From a virus, in the IMG/VR virus record IMGVR_UViG_3300030617_000020, positions 1 through 47,880 of that record: 47,880 nucleotides of DNA; one strand, written 5' to 3'. Numbering within the stretch: the first letter of the stretch is position 1; each line of letters starts with the position of its first letter. The translations under genes were made by a program, and so were the position numbers. Below, one piece after another: positions 1-41,412 of the stretch. Under the pieces are notes generated by a model. That model was not told the origin of the DNA. It saw only the letters and a program-made list of their open reading frames with translations, and made no database searches.

Positions 1-182
1 GGGGCAGACCGAGTTGGCTGGCTCCGAAAACGGCGTCGAGTGCCAAGGCCGCATCGTTCACCGCTACATCAAGGAAGGCTATGAAAAGCTCCAAGAGGAA
101 ATCGCCCTCGTTCAACCCCGGCTCATTATTGCGCTGGGTAATACTGCTCTTTGGGCTCTTACTGGCCTCGTTTCTGTTTCTA
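1..182. repeat. Terminal direct repeat (contig overlap), left copy
   Basis: The first 182 bases are repeated at 47699-47880 with a single difference: A at 128 versus G at 47826, which changes an Ile to a Val codon in the polymerase gene. The repeat lies inside a coding gene and the reading frame continues across the join. That fits the overlap of a circular assembly (unit length about 47,698 bp) better than true packaging termini, which are rarely inside a core gene. Confidence 0.9.
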
Positions 183-1432
183 AGTGGCGTGGAAGCACTC
201 TTACTGTGCCTTCCCTTCCAGGGGTAACAATTGTTCCTACTCTGCACCCTGCCTCTGTCCTACGCCAGTGGTCTACACGCCCCATCGTCGTGCAAGACTT
301 GCGGAGGGCCGCACAAGCCGCAACTATCCCTCCTGTTAAGCCCGCATGGAGGTTTGCTATACGACCTTCATTGCAGCAGGTGCGAGAAACGATGGCGAAT
401 CTGGAAGCCACGCTTGATGCAGCTACCGCCCCCCTCGTCCTCTCGACCGACATAGAAACTCGCGCCCAGCACATCACTTGCTTGGGCATTGCCTGGAGCA
501 AGCTCGATGCCATTTGCATCCCATTCCTCTCTGTCGACCGTCCAGACGGCTATTGGTCACAGGACGATGAGGCTGAGATTGTCTACCTTCTCTATCGGGT
601 TCTCACGCACCGTAACGCATTGGTCATCGGACAAAACTTCATCTACGACACTCAGTATATTCTGCGGCATTGGGGATTCGTACCACGCTTTGGGCGTGAC
701 ACTATGGTCGCCTTCCACGTTTGCTTTCCGGGAATGCCGAAGTCCCTCGACCATATCGCGTCGATGACTAACGAGTGGTACGTGTATTGGAAGGATGATG
801 GCAAGGAATGGGACAAAGGAGCAGACCAAGATGAAGATCGTTATTGGACGTACAACTGTGAGGACTGCGTTCGGACTTATGAGGCCGATGAAGTTCTTCA
901 GACCGTTGTGGATAAGATGGGACTGCGTGGACCACACGACTTTCAGCAGAAGCTATTCTATCCAGTGCTGCGTACTATGGTTCGGGGTGTACGCATCGAT
1001 AAGGCACGACAGACTGCAATGCGAGCGAGGCTGAACCACCATGCGAAGGAATGTATCCAGGCTATCGAGCAGATGGTGGGGTGGCCGCTCAACCCTAAGT
1101 CGCCCAAGCAAATGCAGAAGTTCTTCTACGAAGAGCTTGGCTTACCGGTCCAGAAGAAACGCGGTTCTATCGGTCCATCGTGTGACGACGCAGCGCTTGA
1201 TACGTTCCGCGCAAAAGTTCCATACCTCCGACCGCTGGTTGATGCTATCAAAGAGTTTCGCTCTTGTGAAACCGTCGCAGCGAACGCGTTGAAGGCAGGA
1301 GCAATAGGCCATGATGGAAGAGTCCACTGCTCCTACAACATAACTGGAACAACTACGTTCCGTTTCTCGTCCTCTACGGACGCCTTTGGTAGCGGGTATA
1401 ACCTGCAAAACATTACTGCTGGAGATGAATGA
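1..1432 (+). CDS. DNA polymerase, N-terminal subunit (UDG-like + 3'-5' exonuclease + thumb), continued from 47469
   Basis: This is the main part of a 553-residue protein whose start is at 47469 on the other side of the circular join. Residues about 1-185 resemble a family 4/5 uracil-DNA glycosylase fold (SDAPDFDRKG near residue 17, LIVALGN, HPASVLR), but without the cysteines of the iron-sulfur enzymes and with SDAPD in place of the catalytic GEAPG, so glycosylase activity is doubtful. An intact proofreading exonuclease follows: DIE at about residue 227, QNFIYD, and YNCED. The protein stops just after NLQNI, the motif that precedes palm motif A in family A polymerases. The palm and fingers are encoded separately at 2229-2945. 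UDG-polymerase fusions are known in other phages; this split makes the two halves dependent on each other. The stop overlaps the next start. Confidence 0.9.
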   Translation, partial: GQTELAGSENGVECQGRIVHRYIKEGYEKLQEEIALVQPRLIIALGNTALWALTGLVSVSKWRGSTLTVPSLPGVTIVPTLHPASVLRQWSTRPIVVQDLRRAAQAATIPPVKPAWRFAIRPSLQQVRETMANLEATLDAATAPLVLSTDIETRAQHITCLGIAWSKLDAICIPFLSVDRPDGYWSQDDEAEIVYLLYRVLTHRNALVIGQNFIYDTQYILRHWGFVPRFGRDTMVAFHVCFPGMPKSLDHIASMTNEWYVYWKDDGKEWDKGADQDEDRYWTYNCEDCVRTYEADEVLQTVVDKMGLRGPHDFQQKLFYPVLRTMVRGVRIDKARQTAMRARLNHHAKECIQAIEQMVGWPLNPKSPKQMQKFFYEELGLPVQKKRGSIGPSCDDAALDTFRAKVPYLRPLVDAIKEFRSCETVAANALKAGAIGHDGRVHCSYNITGTTTFRFSSSTDAFGSGYNLQNITAGDE

Positions 1433-2575: not shown

Positions 2576-2945
2576 GCAGTGGCAAGAGCGCCTCACTAAG
2601 AAAGCGGAGCGCACTGCCACGATGGAGAATGCTTTCGGCTATCGGCGCAGGTGGTTCGACCGGGTCGAGGGCAACATCATCAACGAAATGGTGGCATGGA
2701 TTCCCCAATCCACCGTAGCCATCATCATCAACCACGCCTACACAAACATCGATGCGAACCTACCTGATGTGGATATATTGCTTCAAGTACACGACTCTCT
2801 TACTGGGCAGTTTCCGCTGGAAGATCGTGAGAAGCATATCGCGGATATCACCCGCGAAAGTACCATTGTCGTTCCTTACCCTGATCCTCTTATCGTCCCT
2901 GTTGGCCTGAAGCTATCGACGGATAGTTGGGGGCGTTGCAAATGA
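2229..2945 (+). CDS. DNA polymerase family A, C-terminal subunit (palm and fingers)
   Basis: Residues 1-238 carry the polymerase active site: motif A FDLDLDSADLRIV, motif B FKKLCHGTNYMGKPPTIA, motif C LLQVHDSL. It begins A-I-P-N-C, so the family motif NLQNIP is divided exactly between this protein and the N-terminal half. A GTG start at 2229 is supported by CGGAG at 2216-2220, 8 nt upstream; the frame is closed by TAG at 2196, so it cannot be read from the preceding genes without a frameshift. A working enzyme presumably needs assembly with the 553-residue N-terminal half. The stop overlaps the next start (ATGA). Confidence 0.9.
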   Translation: MAIPNCREMFIPDNGREMFDLDLDSADLRIVTWESNCRGMKDLFAAGVKPYVAVAQEYYHDPSITKSHPAYQVFKKLCHGTNYMGKPPTIAGQCGLLVNDVTRIQKWYFEKFPEIKQWQERLTKKAERTATMENAFGYRRRWFDRVEGNIINEMVAWIPQSTVAIIINHAYTNIDANLPDVDILLQVHDSLTGQFPLEDREKHIADITRESTIVVPYPDPLIVPVGLKLSTDSWGRCK

Positions 2946-4129
2946 GAAAGCTAGATAACTGGCTCGACGAGTTCGTGCGCTACGGACAGGTCGGGGAAGC
3001 ACCGGATCACCTCCTCTTCTGGACGGGGGTGTCTACTATTGCAGGCGCATTGGGGAGGAAGGTATGGCTAGAGCAGGGATTGTTTCGTTGGTACGCAAAC
3101 TTCTACGTGGTCCTCGTTGCTCCCCCTGGGATCATCTCGAAGACAACGTGTGCTGGTATCGGTGTGAAGTTGCTGCGCCAAGTGGACGAGGTGTTCTTCG
3201 GGCCGAATGTCGTTACGTGGCAAGCATTGGTTTCGTCCTTCAAGAAAGCGAACTCAGTTACCGAGGAGGGTCATGGCGAGTCTATTGAGACCCATTCACT
3301 CAACATTTTTTCTGGGGAGTTTGGAAACCTGCTGACCCCGAACGACCGGGAGATGATGGACATGCTGGTGTCCCTATGGGACTGCGCATCGATCTACAAG
3401 GAGACGAAGAAGGATGGCGCTGAGTCGATTGAGAACACCTTTCTCAACCTGATTGCATGCACTACGCCCGGGTGGATTAGCGGCAACATCCCCCCGTACA
3501 TGATCGAGGGCGGGTTGGTGAGCCGTATCATCTGGGTCTATGGGGAAGAGAAGCGGAAGCTGGTTGCCTACCCCGGCTTAGCCTTCAACACGGCGGCAAG
3601 TGAGATGCGCAGGCAGGAGATTCGCCTCGTCGAGGACCTCCGTGCTATCTCCAAACTGAAGGGCGAGTTCGGCATGACGGAGGAGGCTATCGCTTGGGGC
3701 GAGGAGTGGTATCAGGCCCACTACTTCCTCCACAAGAAGGGCGCCGATGACGCACGCTTCGGGGGCTACCTCGCCCGGAAGCAAACCCATATCCACAAGC
3801 TGGCGATGATCCTATCCGCCGCCCGTGGCGATTCCATGCTCATCACCGTCGAGGACCTACAAAATGCTGAGACCCATATCACCGCGCTGGAAGCCAGCCT
3901 GCCGCAAATCTTCGACCGCATTGGGAAATCTGAGACATCATCGCAGACTGATCGACTACTCTCATTTATCGGGCAACATGCGCAAGGAGTGCCGATGGCT
4001 ACGGCTTATCAGCATGTACACAACTACTTCCCCAAGCTTGATGATTTCCAAGCGGTGGTCAAAGGGCTTAAAGCTGCGGGTATGGTGAAGCAGAGGGTTG
4101 AAGGAGGAACAATCCTCCTCCACCTTTAG
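2942..4129 (+). CDS. DUF3987-like helicase/primase-type ATPase
   Basis: A 395-residue protein starting at the ATG that overlaps the polymerase stop. It has a P-loop-like VLVAPPGIISKTT near residue 60 (Ser replacing the usual Gly before Lys), and an acidic segment NIFSGEFGNLL in the Walker B position. The C-terminal 80 residues look like a winged helix (TDRLLSFIGQHAQGVPMATA). Architecture and position after the polymerase fit the DUF3987 family of phage replication ATPases, which replace DnaB-type helicases in many genomes. The gene converges on the endolysin and overlaps it by 4 nt. Function is inferred from the family pattern, not proven. Confidence 0.6.
   Translation: MRKLDNWLDEFVRYGQVGEAPDHLLFWTGVSTIAGALGRKVWLEQGLFRWYANFYVVLVAPPGIISKTTCAGIGVKLLRQVDEVFFGPNVVTWQALVSSFKKANSVTEEGHGESIETHSLNIFSGEFGNLLTPNDREMMDMLVSLWDCASIYKETKKDGAESIENTFLNLIACTTPGWISGNIPPYMIEGGLVSRIIWVYGEEKRKLVAYPGLAFNTAASEMRRQEIRLVEDLRAISKLKGEFGMTEEAIAWGEEWYQAHYFLHKKGADDARFGGYLARKQTHIHKLAMILSAARGDSMLITVEDLQNAETHITALEASLPQIFDRIGKSETSSQTDRLLSFIGQHAQGVPMATAYQHVHNYFPKLDDFQAVVKGLKAAGMVKQRVEGGTILLHL
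4103..4118. terminator. Inverted repeat at the convergent gene junction
   Basis: GGAGGA and TCCTCC form a 6-bp stem with an ACAA loop, within the last codons of the plus-strand gene and just before the overlapping stops of two convergent genes (4126-4129). There is no U-tract on either strand, so it is at best a weak bidirectional terminator or mRNA 3'-end hairpin. No other terminator is visible at this junction. Confidence 0.25.
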
Positions 4130-29653: not shown

Positions 29654-29732
29654 TGGTCTGGGCGGCAGGATTCGAACCTGCGACCTCCTGCTTCCAGGGC
29701 AGGTGACTTGACCGGACTAGCCTACACCCAGA
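29654..29732 (-). tRNA. tRNA-Pro-like (anticodon TGG), CCA encoded
   Basis: The minus strand folds as a tRNA: acceptor TCTGGGT/GCCCAGA followed by encoded CCA, D-stem GGCT/AGTC, anticodon stem CCTGC/GCAGG, and T-arm GCAGG TTCGAAT CCTGC. The seven-base anticodon loop is CCTGGAA, giving TGG (Pro) at 34-36. Two oddities: base 33 is C, not the near-universal U, and three bases instead of two lie between acceptor and D-stem, with no U8. It may be a divergent phage tRNA or a non-decoding tRNA-like element. It lies between the late promoter candidate and the first late gene. Confidence 0.65.
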
Positions 29733-34783: not shown

Positions 34784-34804
34784 GGGGGTGATCCCCCCTC
34801 TTTT
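34784..34804 (+). terminator. Rho-independent terminator of the first early operon
   Basis: GGGGG-TGAT-CCCCC followed by CTCTTTT, 8 nt after the last stop codon. The stem is short but pure G-C. Confidence 0.65.
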
Positions 34805-34815
34805 CGAGGTGAAAA

Positions 34816-34917
34816 ATGAAATTTCTAAAATGCACCTTGCGCACAGTCAGTACAAGAGTACAAGAATACAAGTTTGGAGAAAAAGGCAGAAATCGCGAAA
34901 AAGAAAAAAGTAAGTAA
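34816..34917 (+). CDS. Possible 33-residue basic peptide next to origin candidate
   Basis: MKFLKCTLRTVSTRVQEYKF..., then a Lys/Glu/Arg tail. GAGG is 6 nt before the ATG. It runs through the left arm of the palindrome, so its codons may simply reflect that repeat. Might be a DNA-binding peptide. Confidence 0.3.
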   Translation: MKFLKCTLRTVSTRVQEYKFGEKGRNREKEKSK

Positions 34918-35026
34918 GGGGGGATATTAAAAAAAAAAAAATAAATAACCTACCTTCTACACTTTTTTTTCCTTTCCAAAATCTGTCGCAATTTGCTCAA
35001 ACTTGTATTCTTGTATCCTCGTATCC
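34851..35026. repeat. AT-rich imperfect palindrome with inverted 8-bp iterons, candidate replication origin
   Basis: Left arm: three tandem TACAAGA(G/A) units (34851-34872). Right arm: three CTTGTAT(T/C)-type units (35002-35026). An 18-bp stretch, TACAAGAATACAAGTTTG (34859-34876), is exactly repeated in inverse at 34998-35015, and weaker complementarity continues inward through purine-rich and pyrimidine-rich arms to a centre with a run of 13 A and a run of 8 T. This is the most AT-rich part of an otherwise GC-rich genome, between two operons. Confidence 0.55.
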
Positions 35027-35121
35027 AGCGTTGAACGCGTGCGCATGTTCGACAGCTAAAATCAATTACCAAAGTGCCTGAAGTACGTGCATAATACGAG
35101 TTCGCACCACGGAGACCCAAA

Positions 35122-35565
35122 TTGACATCCCGAACCCCTCAACCACTGAACCGTTTCCCTGCCATCGACTTCGAAGTCCTGAACCGCGTGGCCGAAACCG
35201 GGCGCCTGGACATCACATTCCAGACCCCCAATATGGCAATGAACACGAAGTTCCGGCTCCTGCGTCTCATCAAGTCGCTCGAATTCTACAAACCCGCCGA
35301 CCCCCTGACGCAAGTTGCCGTTCTCTTCACCATCAAAATCGATGCCAAGCGCGGCGCCATGACAATCCTACGCAAGGACCAATCGCCCGAACGTAATGCC
35401 ATGCGCGCGGCCCTCGATGCTGCCCCCGGTGCTATCGCCTCCTCCGACATCAACGAAGCTGAAGACGCTGGCATGGACCTCGCTATCGAGCAGATGAAGC
35501 AGAACGGACAACTCATCCTCGTCAACGGCGAGTGGTGCCACAACCCGGACTGGGTGGCAGAATGA
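35122..35565 (+). CDS. Early/middle hypothetical protein, TTG start
   Basis: A 147-residue protein. TTG at 35122 is the start, with GGAG 7 nt upstream and no better ATG until residue 38. N-terminal part is helical (FPAIDFEVLNRVAETG; RLLRLIKSLEFYKP) and the end carries WCHNPDWV. First gene of the second rightward operon; CATAAT at 35088-35093 is a possible -10 box. Family unknown. Confidence 0.55.
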   Translation: MTSRTPQPLNRFPAIDFEVLNRVAETGRLDITFQTPNMAMNTKFRLLRLIKSLEFYKPADPLTQVAVLFTIKIDAKRGAMTILRKDQSPERNAMRAALDAAPGAIASSDINEAEDAGMDLAIEQMKQNGQLILVNGEWCHNPDWVAE

Positions 35566-35770: not shown

Positions 35771-36256
35771 ATGACCACGAAGCAAAGCAAAGTAGCAATC
35801 GAATCCACCATCGAAGAGAATGGGGACATCTTCCACGCCCTCACCTTCTCGAACGGCGCGAAGTCCGTTGTCCATATCAAGCATGATTCGCCCTTGATCG
35901 GCAAGTTCGTCGAGCACGGCTCGAAGTCCAAGCTCCTCGCTGCCGCCAACTCGGCCAAGGATGTCGAGGACGCCACCCTCAAGGTCGCCGCCATCGCTAC
36001 GGCCTTCAAGGAAGGCAAGTGGAGCCTCGTCAATGAGTCGACGGAACCGAAGGTTGGCATTCTGGCGCAAGCCCTCGCCGCGTTGAAGGGCTGCTCGCTT
36101 GAAGAAGCTCAGGCGTTCGTTGCTACGCAAGACCGCGCAGCGCAAGCCAAGCTGCGTGCTGCCCCCCTCGTTGCCGCGAAGATTGTGGAACTTAACAAGG
36201 GCGTTGCTGTCGAAGAAGAAGTAAGCGATGCCCTCTCTGGCTTCCTTGGAGTCTAA
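35771..36256 (+). CDS. Hypothetical protein, 161 residues
   Basis: AGGAG precedes ATG 35771. A beta-rich first third (EENGDIFHALTFSNGAKSVV), then helices (LGQ-free: ALAALKGCSLEEAQAFVATQ). It ends SDALSGFLGV; the codons for FLG contain the TTGGAG ribosome site of the next gene. No family recognised; likely a DNA-metabolism accessory by location only. Confidence 0.55.
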   Translation: MTTKQSKVAIESTIEENGDIFHALTFSNGAKSVVHIKHDSPLIGKFVEHGSKSKLLAAANSAKDVEDATLKVAAIATAFKEGKWSLVNESTEPKVGILAQALAALKGCSLEEAQAFVATQDRAAQAKLRAAPLVAAKIVELNKGVAVEEEVSDALSGFLGV

Positions 36257-36259
36257 CCT

Positions 36260-36649
36260 ATGAACCTGTCCCTGGAACCCGATGAACTGCGCGCCGTCCT
36301 CAATGCCTGTGGCGTAGCTGTCACCGCGATTCAGGGACCGGCGCAAAACGCCCGACAACGCGACTTCCAACATGCGGTCGCAGACAACCTCGGCGCCTTC
36401 ACCTCCGCTAGTCGGAAGTTGTCGGCCCTAGCTAAGAAAATGGAGCAAGGAATGGTAAGACCTTTGAGCGATAAGATTTACGTCCACGCTGCCCTCACGC
36501 CAGAAGCGCATCGTGCTCTGCACGAGACCCTCGCCCACCGCTTCAATGGCAAGGTGCCTACTGGTGCTATCGGCACTTACTTGTCGGAGTTGATCCTTAG
36601 CGATGCCGCAGAAGTTTGCGCGGATACTCTGGCCAAGGAGGACCTGTGA
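36260..36649 (+). CDS. Hypothetical protein, 129 residues
   Basis: Two helical parts: residues 1-60 (DELRAVLNACGVAVTAIQGP; FTSASRKLSALAKKMEQG) and 65-129 (YVHAALTPEAHRALHETLAH; AIGTYLSELILSDAAEV). The second resembles small ribbon/helix DNA-binding domains but without a clear motif. GTGA overlap with the next gene. Confidence 0.5.
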   Translation: MNLSLEPDELRAVLNACGVAVTAIQGPAQNARQRDFQHAVADNLGAFTSASRKLSALAKKMEQGMVRPLSDKIYVHAALTPEAHRALHETLAHRFNGKVPTGAIGTYLSELILSDAAEVCADTLAKEDL

Positions 36650-40349: not shown

Positions 40350-40555
40350 TCCCCCTCAAACTCTTCCTCGCGGTCTTCTTCACCGCCATCGTCACCTTCA
40401 TCTGGACGGAGTGTCACACCGCCTCCTCCTGCGACGATGACAACACCTCCATCACCCATATCGCGGGCAAGGACTACTTCTGCGCGGACTACAACTCCAC
40501 CGTGGAAGTTTTTCGCCGGTTGAAGGCCAACCAAGCCAAAGGACCGCAAGCATGA
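40346..40555 (+). CDS. Small secreted or anchored protein, 69 residues
   Basis: MIPLKLFLAVFFTAIVTFIW is a signal-anchor-like helix, followed by a Cys-containing polar part (CHTASSCDDDNTS; DYFCADYN). Possibly periplasm-facing. Overlaps the Sak4-like gene by 4 nt. Family unknown. Confidence 0.5.
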   Translation: MIPLKLFLAVFFTAIVTFIWTECHTASSCDDDNTSITHIAGKDYFCADYNSTVEVFRRLKANQAKGPQA

Positions 40556-41412
40556 CCGACACTGTCGAAGTTCTAGAAGGCTTCAACACCATCCTGATGG
40601 GTGCTAGTGGCACGGGGAAAACCCACGCCATTGGGACCCTCGTGGACACGGGCCTTGAAGTCTTTTACATCCCTTTGGAATCAGGTACGGAATCTCTTAT
40701 CGGCTATTACACCGATAAGGGTCAACCTGTGCCTGACAATCTCCACATCCACGCCCTCTCCCAACCCAAAGCCTCTTTCATGGACCTGTTCGACGCGGCG
40801 AAGCGCACCAACACGCTCCCCCACGACGCAGTCATGAAGATGGCCGACCCCAAGCGCTCCAAGTACGATGGCTACCTTCAACTCCTTACTTCCCTCAACG
40901 ACTTCACAGATAACAGAACTGGTGAAAAATTTGGACCGGCTGACACCTGGGGAACAGATCGAGTGGTGGTCGTTGACGGTCTCACCGGACTTAATAATTT
41001 TGCGATGCAACTTGTCATCGGAGGAAGAGCGGAAAGAACTCAAACGGACTGGGGCGTTGCCCAATCATATGTTATGTCTCTCCTTCGAAAACTCACCGAT
41101 GGTTGCCGATGCCATTTCGTACTTATCGCGCACGTTGAGAGGGAGACCGACTTGGTGTTGGGAGGGGTCAAGCTCACCGTCAGTACCCTCGGAAAAGCCA
41201 TTGCCGGAACAATCCCCCCCTTATTCAGCGATGTAGTGCTGACGAAGAAGGATGTCGACAAGTTCTTTTGGTCAACCGCCGAGGCTAACGCCGATGTCAA
41301 GAACCGAAACTTGCCCTTGAAGGCGGGGCAGGCGCCCTCATTTGCTCCTCTCTACCAGAAGTGGTTGGAACGTAGCAAGGGCATGCAAAGTGTGGAGGTG
41401 GCAGATGAATAA
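40552..41412 (+). CDS. Sak4-like RecA-fold ATPase (annealing recombinase)
   Basis: A 286-residue ATPase: Walker A GASGTGKT (17-24), Walker B RVVVVDG with Asp142, and a RecA-like HFVLIAHVERETD strand. It lacks helicase motifs and matches the Sak4-type single-strand annealing ATPases or AAA_24-type phage proteins. Together with the Cas4-like exonuclease upstream and the SSB-like protein at 43440, it would make an annealing-based recombination system. The Sak4 label is by motif and context. Confidence 0.65.
   Translation: MTDTVEVLEGFNTILMGASGTGKTHAIGTLVDTGLEVFYIPLESGTESLIGYYTDKGQPVPDNLHIHALSQPKASFMDLFDAAKRTNTLPHDAVMKMADPKRSKYDGYLQLLTSLNDFTDNRTGEKFGPADTWGTDRVVVVDGLTGLNNFAMQLVIGGRAERTQTDWGVAQSYVMSLLRKLTDGCRCHFVLIAHVERETDLVLGGVKLTVSTLGKAIAGTIPPLFSDVVLTKKDVDKFFWSTAEANADVKNRNLPLKAGQAPSFAPLYQKWLERSKGMQSVEVADE

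Follow-up and report, generated by a model that had tools for sequence, protein, structure and literature searches.

What role does a short, strongly AT-rich palindrome play between two operons of a phage genome whose overall GC content is 0.572? The DNA analysed here in its entirety (hereafter the window) is a complete IMG/VR virus record of 47,880 bases, classed linear, and its PHROG matches suggest a podovirus-like, lytic, tailed phage. According to these matches, genes for a family-A DNA polymerase (14-1432), a pyrophosphatase and a primase (2927-4129) lie on the left, portal and terminase genes occupy the minus strand, and the plus strand carries genes for an HNH endonuclease, an exonuclease and a Sak4-like single-strand annealing protein (40552-41412). 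The palindrome sits in the plus-strand early/replication half, among the exonuclease, Sak4, primase and polymerase genes. A DNA-level search with the window revealed no similar genome among cultured phages. A tRNA-Pro gene (anticodon tgg; 29654-29731, minus strand) adjoins the terminase genes; tRNA-Pro(tgg) was also recorded in relative G001 and tRNA-Tyr in relative G005. Three independent contigs (the window, G001 and G002) have every break inside the DNA polymerase gene (window 1-1432), with polymerase residues 73-98 of G001 encoded at both contig ends. These breaks suggest either that the assemblies are circularly permuted or that the polymerase gene has some peculiarity.

An initial annotation had placed at 34851-35026 an AT-rich palindrome in which three tandem 8-bp TACAAGA-type units face three inverted ones. 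The units were indeed present. The left array (34851-34874, plus strand) is composed of TACAAGAG, TACAAGAA and TACAAGTT, with TACAAG at 34851, 34859 and 34867, and the right array (35000-35023, minus strand) of TACAAGTT, TACAAGAA and TACGAGGA as read on the minus strand, with CTTGTA at 35002 and 35010 and an imperfect third core (CTCGTA, 35018-35023) that is one base off. The start of the span was correct and its end was not, since the arms stop at 35023; likewise, the structure is an inverted repeat as announced, but an interrupted rather than a contiguous one. Its 18-bp arm is perfect (34859-34876 / 34998-35015), and 23 positions match over the full 26-nt arms. Between the arms extends an AT-rich core of about 125 bp (34875-34999), the proposed unwinding region, whose left half is purine-rich and right half pyrimidine-rich and in which the A13 (34929-34941) and T8 (34963-34970) runs were retrieved. 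The reported GC anomaly was equally sharp: 34851-35026 displays 0.318, i.e. 32% versus 57% for the contig, and is the contig minimum, the next lowest 176-bp window reaching 0.403. The element is also the top-scoring interrupted palindrome of the contig (score 18, whereas 200 dinucleotide shuffles of the region gave 8.2 on average and 12 at most), and a scan for three tandem 8-bp units with at least 13/16 lag matches returned the two arms only in the 47.9 kb.

The location, between a terminator and the second operon, also proved accurate. An intrinsic terminator-like hairpin with a T-rich tail (34784-34804, plus strand) closes the upstream plus-strand operon. The start of the following gene, at 35122, is preceded by a sigma-70-like promoter (TTACCA-18-CATAAT, 35066-35095, plus strand) recognised by consensus match only; relative L110 displays TTGACA-17-TACACT, likewise a consensus match, at the equivalent place. 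This gene, ORF 35122 (35122-35565, plus strand), adjoins the palindrome and encodes a conserved, uncharacterised protein of 147 aa, a candidate initiator or regulator. The same block comprises a conserved downstream gene (35771-36256, plus strand). ORF 36260 (36260-36649, plus strand) encodes 129 aa, of which the C-terminal half (residues ~72-117) appears ribbon-helix-helix-like (RHH); its product is the second candidate binder.

Comparison with relatives indicated which of these traits are maintained. Three near-identical contigs differed from the window at the element solely in the length of the A-run and displayed an identical orientation. Longer-range comparisons were informative for five relatives: G001 and G002 (terminase identities to the window of 73% and 69%, respectively), G005 and G006, both found through Sak4, as well as G004, which is more distant. 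In G001, G002, G005 and G006, the top-scoring interrupted palindrome of each contig occupied the gap that separates the preceding gene block from the ORF 35122 homologue. The preceding block was co-directional, terminator-like hairpins occurred ahead of the palindrome in some of these relatives, and the distance from palindrome to ORF 35122 homologue was 109-148 bp in the four, or 107-148 bp with the window included. The letters of the arms, on the other hand, were unrelated among the five phages: the units of the window have as counterparts GGTTTAAT/TTTTTAGT/TTTTCAAT in G001, GGTCACAT/GACTTTAT/GACTATAT in G002, ATGAAACT/ATAAAACT/ATGACACT in G005 and AGATTTAC/CGATTTAC/CGATTTAT in G006. When left arms were pooled, self-identity at lag 8 amounted to 70/98 (71%), versus 0.23-0.38 at the other lags from 2 to 15, a value reached by 0/20,000 shuffles. 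Since period 8 is common to arms with unrelated letters, unit number, period and mirror orientation have been kept while the sequence was drifting.

These comparisons also bear on the idea that a short AT-rich segment flanked by inverted repeats might be a promoter segment able to invert, or else a MITE, i.e. a small mobile element bounded by terminal inverted repeats. This is extremely improbable. The uniform orientation in the three near-identical contigs makes inversion less likely; as for a MITE, relatives carry unrelated sequences at the equivalent place, and no target duplication is visible. The genes that were scanned included no recombinase.

Conserved in sequence across the five phages, as the iterons are not, is an AT-rich block (approximately GAAAAnGAAAATTTCnGAAAT; 34806-34831 in the window) just outside the left arm. 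In the alignment it corresponds to GAGGTGAAAAATGAAATTTCTAAAAT in the window and approximately GGGGnGAAAAnGAAAATTTCnGAAAT in relatives, and it reads GAAAA..GAAAATTTC..GAAAT. In G004 (L027 9786-9875), a direct repeat of ~26 bp, AGTCGATTTTCGCGGGATAGTCG, occurs twice between the palindrome arms together with a T12 run. Finally, TGTCAAGG is common to the palindrome centres of three relatives (L110 2720-2770, L032 3090-3120 and L019 1255-1275), where, on the minus strand, it reads as a TTGACA box lying within the palindrome; that of L032 scores as a sigma-70-like promoter (TTGACA-17-TAATAT). A primer or an antisense transcript is a possible product of this box.

Differences between the two arms of a same palindrome were informative as to the nature of the units. 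They affected 3/86 positions in unit cores and 16/57 in spacers (Fisher p 3e-5) in the four phages with readable unit cores, a set picked after seeing the sequences. Mismatches compatible with G-U pairing numbered 32 versus 20 according to strand, next to 40 of other kinds, which represents no clear preference. As far as sequence comparison goes, mismatches that spare the cores and have no clear strand preference for G-U pairs favour protein-bound DNA sites over RNA structure. The second operon might have in its leader a long RNA hairpin, acting as a terminator, an RNase III site or an antisense structure. The plus-strand RNA does fold strongly, at -54.6 kcal/mol (z -7.1), but such folding is expected of any inverted repeat, the loop would exceed 100 nt, which is not terminator-like, and the periodicity of the units would be left unexplained. 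Moreover, an Rfam search gave no match at the palindrome, tRNA being its sole match, so that, with no clear G-U preference, this reading appears very improbable. A scan for terminators, defined as GC-rich stems with a short loop and a T run behind them, retrieved the upstream site at 34784-34797 only. The initial annotation had opposed to its own proposal a palindrome acting only as an RNA terminator; the lack of a terminator in the palindrome, taken with the core-sparing mismatches and their lack of a clear strand preference, disfavours this.

The association between gene and palindrome extended to a wider group of phages. A profile search found the ORF 35122 family in 18/21 Sak4-bearing contigs. 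Among 21 contigs with a gene of this family, the top palindrome was at most 250 bp upstream in 10 and at most 3 kb upstream in 16 (binomial p under uniform placement of 1e-16 and 1e-13, respectively, both overstated since relatedness between phages is ignored). Four of the 21 (G007, G011, G016 and G018) displayed no comparable palindrome near the gene, G011 and G016 being short contigs. Array spacing was about 10 bp in G020, G022 and G023, and in G022 inverted units of ~10 bp surround an AT-repeat centre of ATATATATA repeats. In the latter (L165 19200-19629), GATTATCGCG repeats with 10-bp spacing are located outside TTGTCC repeats. Vibrio phage VS-ABTNL-3 (MF497422), whose palindrome spans 40665-40790, displays three 7-bp units on each side with a T8 core between; MW202796, whose palindrome is merely a TA repeat, and OK172329, which is without palindrome, were left out. 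A tblastn search of cultured phages with the ORF 35122 family gave no match, and no described origin for related cultured phages was found among the papers covered by a literature search.

Cultured relatives, recognised by their primase, carry comparable palindromes near the ends of their linear records, between terminase and early genes (at 40.7 of 43.6 kb in MF497422, 42.8 of 43.8 kb in PaP2 and 44.1 of 44.4 kb in PP438425). Such places would suit a packaging or terminus element, with hairpins or terminase-related binding at a concatemer junction. In the window, however, the small terminase gene is 5.6 kb from the element, and a hairpin terminus is not expected to have repeated short units; the contigs of the window, G001 and G002 break within the polymerase gene, so their termini are not readable. 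We regard a packaging role as quite improbable.

As to the protein that would bind the units, our guess is the product of either ORF 35122 or ORF 36260. The model of the former (pLDDT 85, core above 95) displays the order helix-strand-helix-helix-strand-strand, common to winged helices; no recognisable initiator domain and no significant structural match were found for it, and together with its relatives it gave no Pfam match up to E 0.1. Foldseek returned no significant match for either protein and a second structure comparison returned weak ones (best Z 5.0 for ORF 35122 and 5.5 for ORF 36260). Among the matches listed, the antitoxin AtaR alone covers the C-terminal part of ORF 36260 (model residues 75-129, Z 4.1, rmsd 2.3 over 48 residues). 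This stretch shows an RHH pattern, weak in the window protein (family HMM E 0.005), and about 15 of the other contigs encode, downstream, members of a clear small-protein family with this pattern. One member of this family weakly matches the Arc-like repressor phrog_3180 (E 0.0054), and a PDB sequence search of the RHH candidate gave a single match (E 1.4), 2k6l, which we take to be an RHH protein. Binding of tandem 7-8 bp units by such a protein would fit the 8-bp period.

The strongest rival of an origin is an operator acting on transcription. Both arrays would be bound by a repressor or activator of the phage (e.g. an RHH protein such as that of ORF 36260), which would loop the DNA and govern the second early operon's promoter, perhaps regulating its own synthesis as well. 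This is consistent with the binding of RHH proteins to contiguous short repeats, both direct and inverted, as known for the 7-bp repeats of omega (PMC9499535), with an RHH-like protein that most of these phages encode no more than 6 kb further downstream, and with promoter-like sites just downstream, to which the minus-strand promoter-like site inside the L032 palindrome may be added. Yet an operator alone leaves the strongly AT-rich core and its homopolymer runs unexplained, and the arrays of the window are at least 40 bp upstream of the candidate promoter. Besides the weakness of the RHH assignment in the window protein (E about 0.005), G002 has the palindrome, but its ORF 36260 homologue is devoid of the RHH stretch, and another RHH protein was looked for there without success. 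The operator reading was judged unlikely. A regulatory operator would nevertheless share much of the origin-like anatomy, and the two readings need not exclude each other, since an origin and an autoregulated promoter are frequently found at one site.

A replication origin, or the main one, in which inverted iteron arrays flank an unwinding core, is what we hold, with moderate confidence, the element to be. It is the reading that best accounts together for the AT-richness, the unit arrays, the replication-gene context, the conserved position and the fast drift of the sites. Anatomy, uniqueness in the contig, conserved position, and unit period and orientation kept with drifting unit sequence are legible in the DNA itself; in terms of an iteron origin, they amount, at sequence level only, to six units in two contig-unique arrays and an adjacent AT-rich GC minimum. 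Binding of the units by a protein, unwinding of the core and replication start at the element are what we infer from them. A phage DNA-binding protein would occupy the three 8-bp iterons on each side and, the arrays facing each other, bound proteins would be placed symmetrically on either side of the AT-rich core of ~125 bp. Under strain, this core would then open, and the phage primase, family-A DNA polymerase and single-strand annealing protein would load there. The initiator-binding and unwinding region of the initial annotation is retained in this form as the best explanation, helped by the conserved architecture with divergent sequence in relatives, its replication role being predicted. 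The GC-skew check that had been proposed gave mixed results: in G001 the cumulative maximum was only 15 bp off the centre of the palindrome, but it was 1.6 kb off in the window and elsewhere in others, with inconsistent sign. G001, G021 and G012 have a cumulative maximum close to the site, G022 and G019 a minimum, and other relatives neither of the two.

A plausible, although tentative, generalisation is that this large and mostly uncultured Sak4-carrying phage group possesses an origin class of mirror-image arrays of 7-10 bp iterons around an AT-rich core, recognised by a new small-protein family (that of ORF 35122), with sites drifting fast and only the geometry conserved. To our knowledge, the origins of most lytic phages are not known and cannot be recognised from similarity at the sequence level. 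Origin prediction across the group would become possible with a geometric signature that combines the strongest interrupted palindrome, short inverted unit arrays and one conserved small gene. Such a signature would also be a direct case of binding-site drift with the layout held, and would provide a testable role for an uncharacterised core gene family.

Several known systems invite comparison. Foley reportedly described, in 1998, a non-coding element with origin characteristics in Streptococcus thermophilus phage Sfi21; like that of the window it is a short non-coding phage element, a likeness by description and not by sequence, and its host group and gene context differ. MetJ recognises boxes of 8 bp. 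Both met boxes and the omega/ParB parS heptad arrays of pSM19035 resemble the window by contiguous units of 7-8 bp and an RHH-like protein encoded nearby, in contrast to which the window displays three units per side with an AT-rich core between and a binder that is a candidate only; no ParA-like gene was found among the window genes scanned. Dimers of the RHH protein omega bind contiguous 7-bp repeats in direct or inverted arrangement (PMC9499535). The origin of the phage satellite PLE, with RepA, is of the iteron type (PMC7145576); this RepA is a RepA_N member, and the Pfam search of ORF 35122 and its relatives showed no RepA_N domain. Iteron origins (plasmids, PLE and oriLambda) have in common with the window short direct repeats by an AT-rich region, non-coding and beside a phage gene cluster, and their repeats vary between related replicons as they do in these phages. 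The origin of lambda is itself of the iteron type, and typical plasmid iterons measure about 17-22 bp and run in one direction. Unlike in iteron origins, the units of the window are just 8 bp long, three per side, and are arranged in mirror-image arrays.
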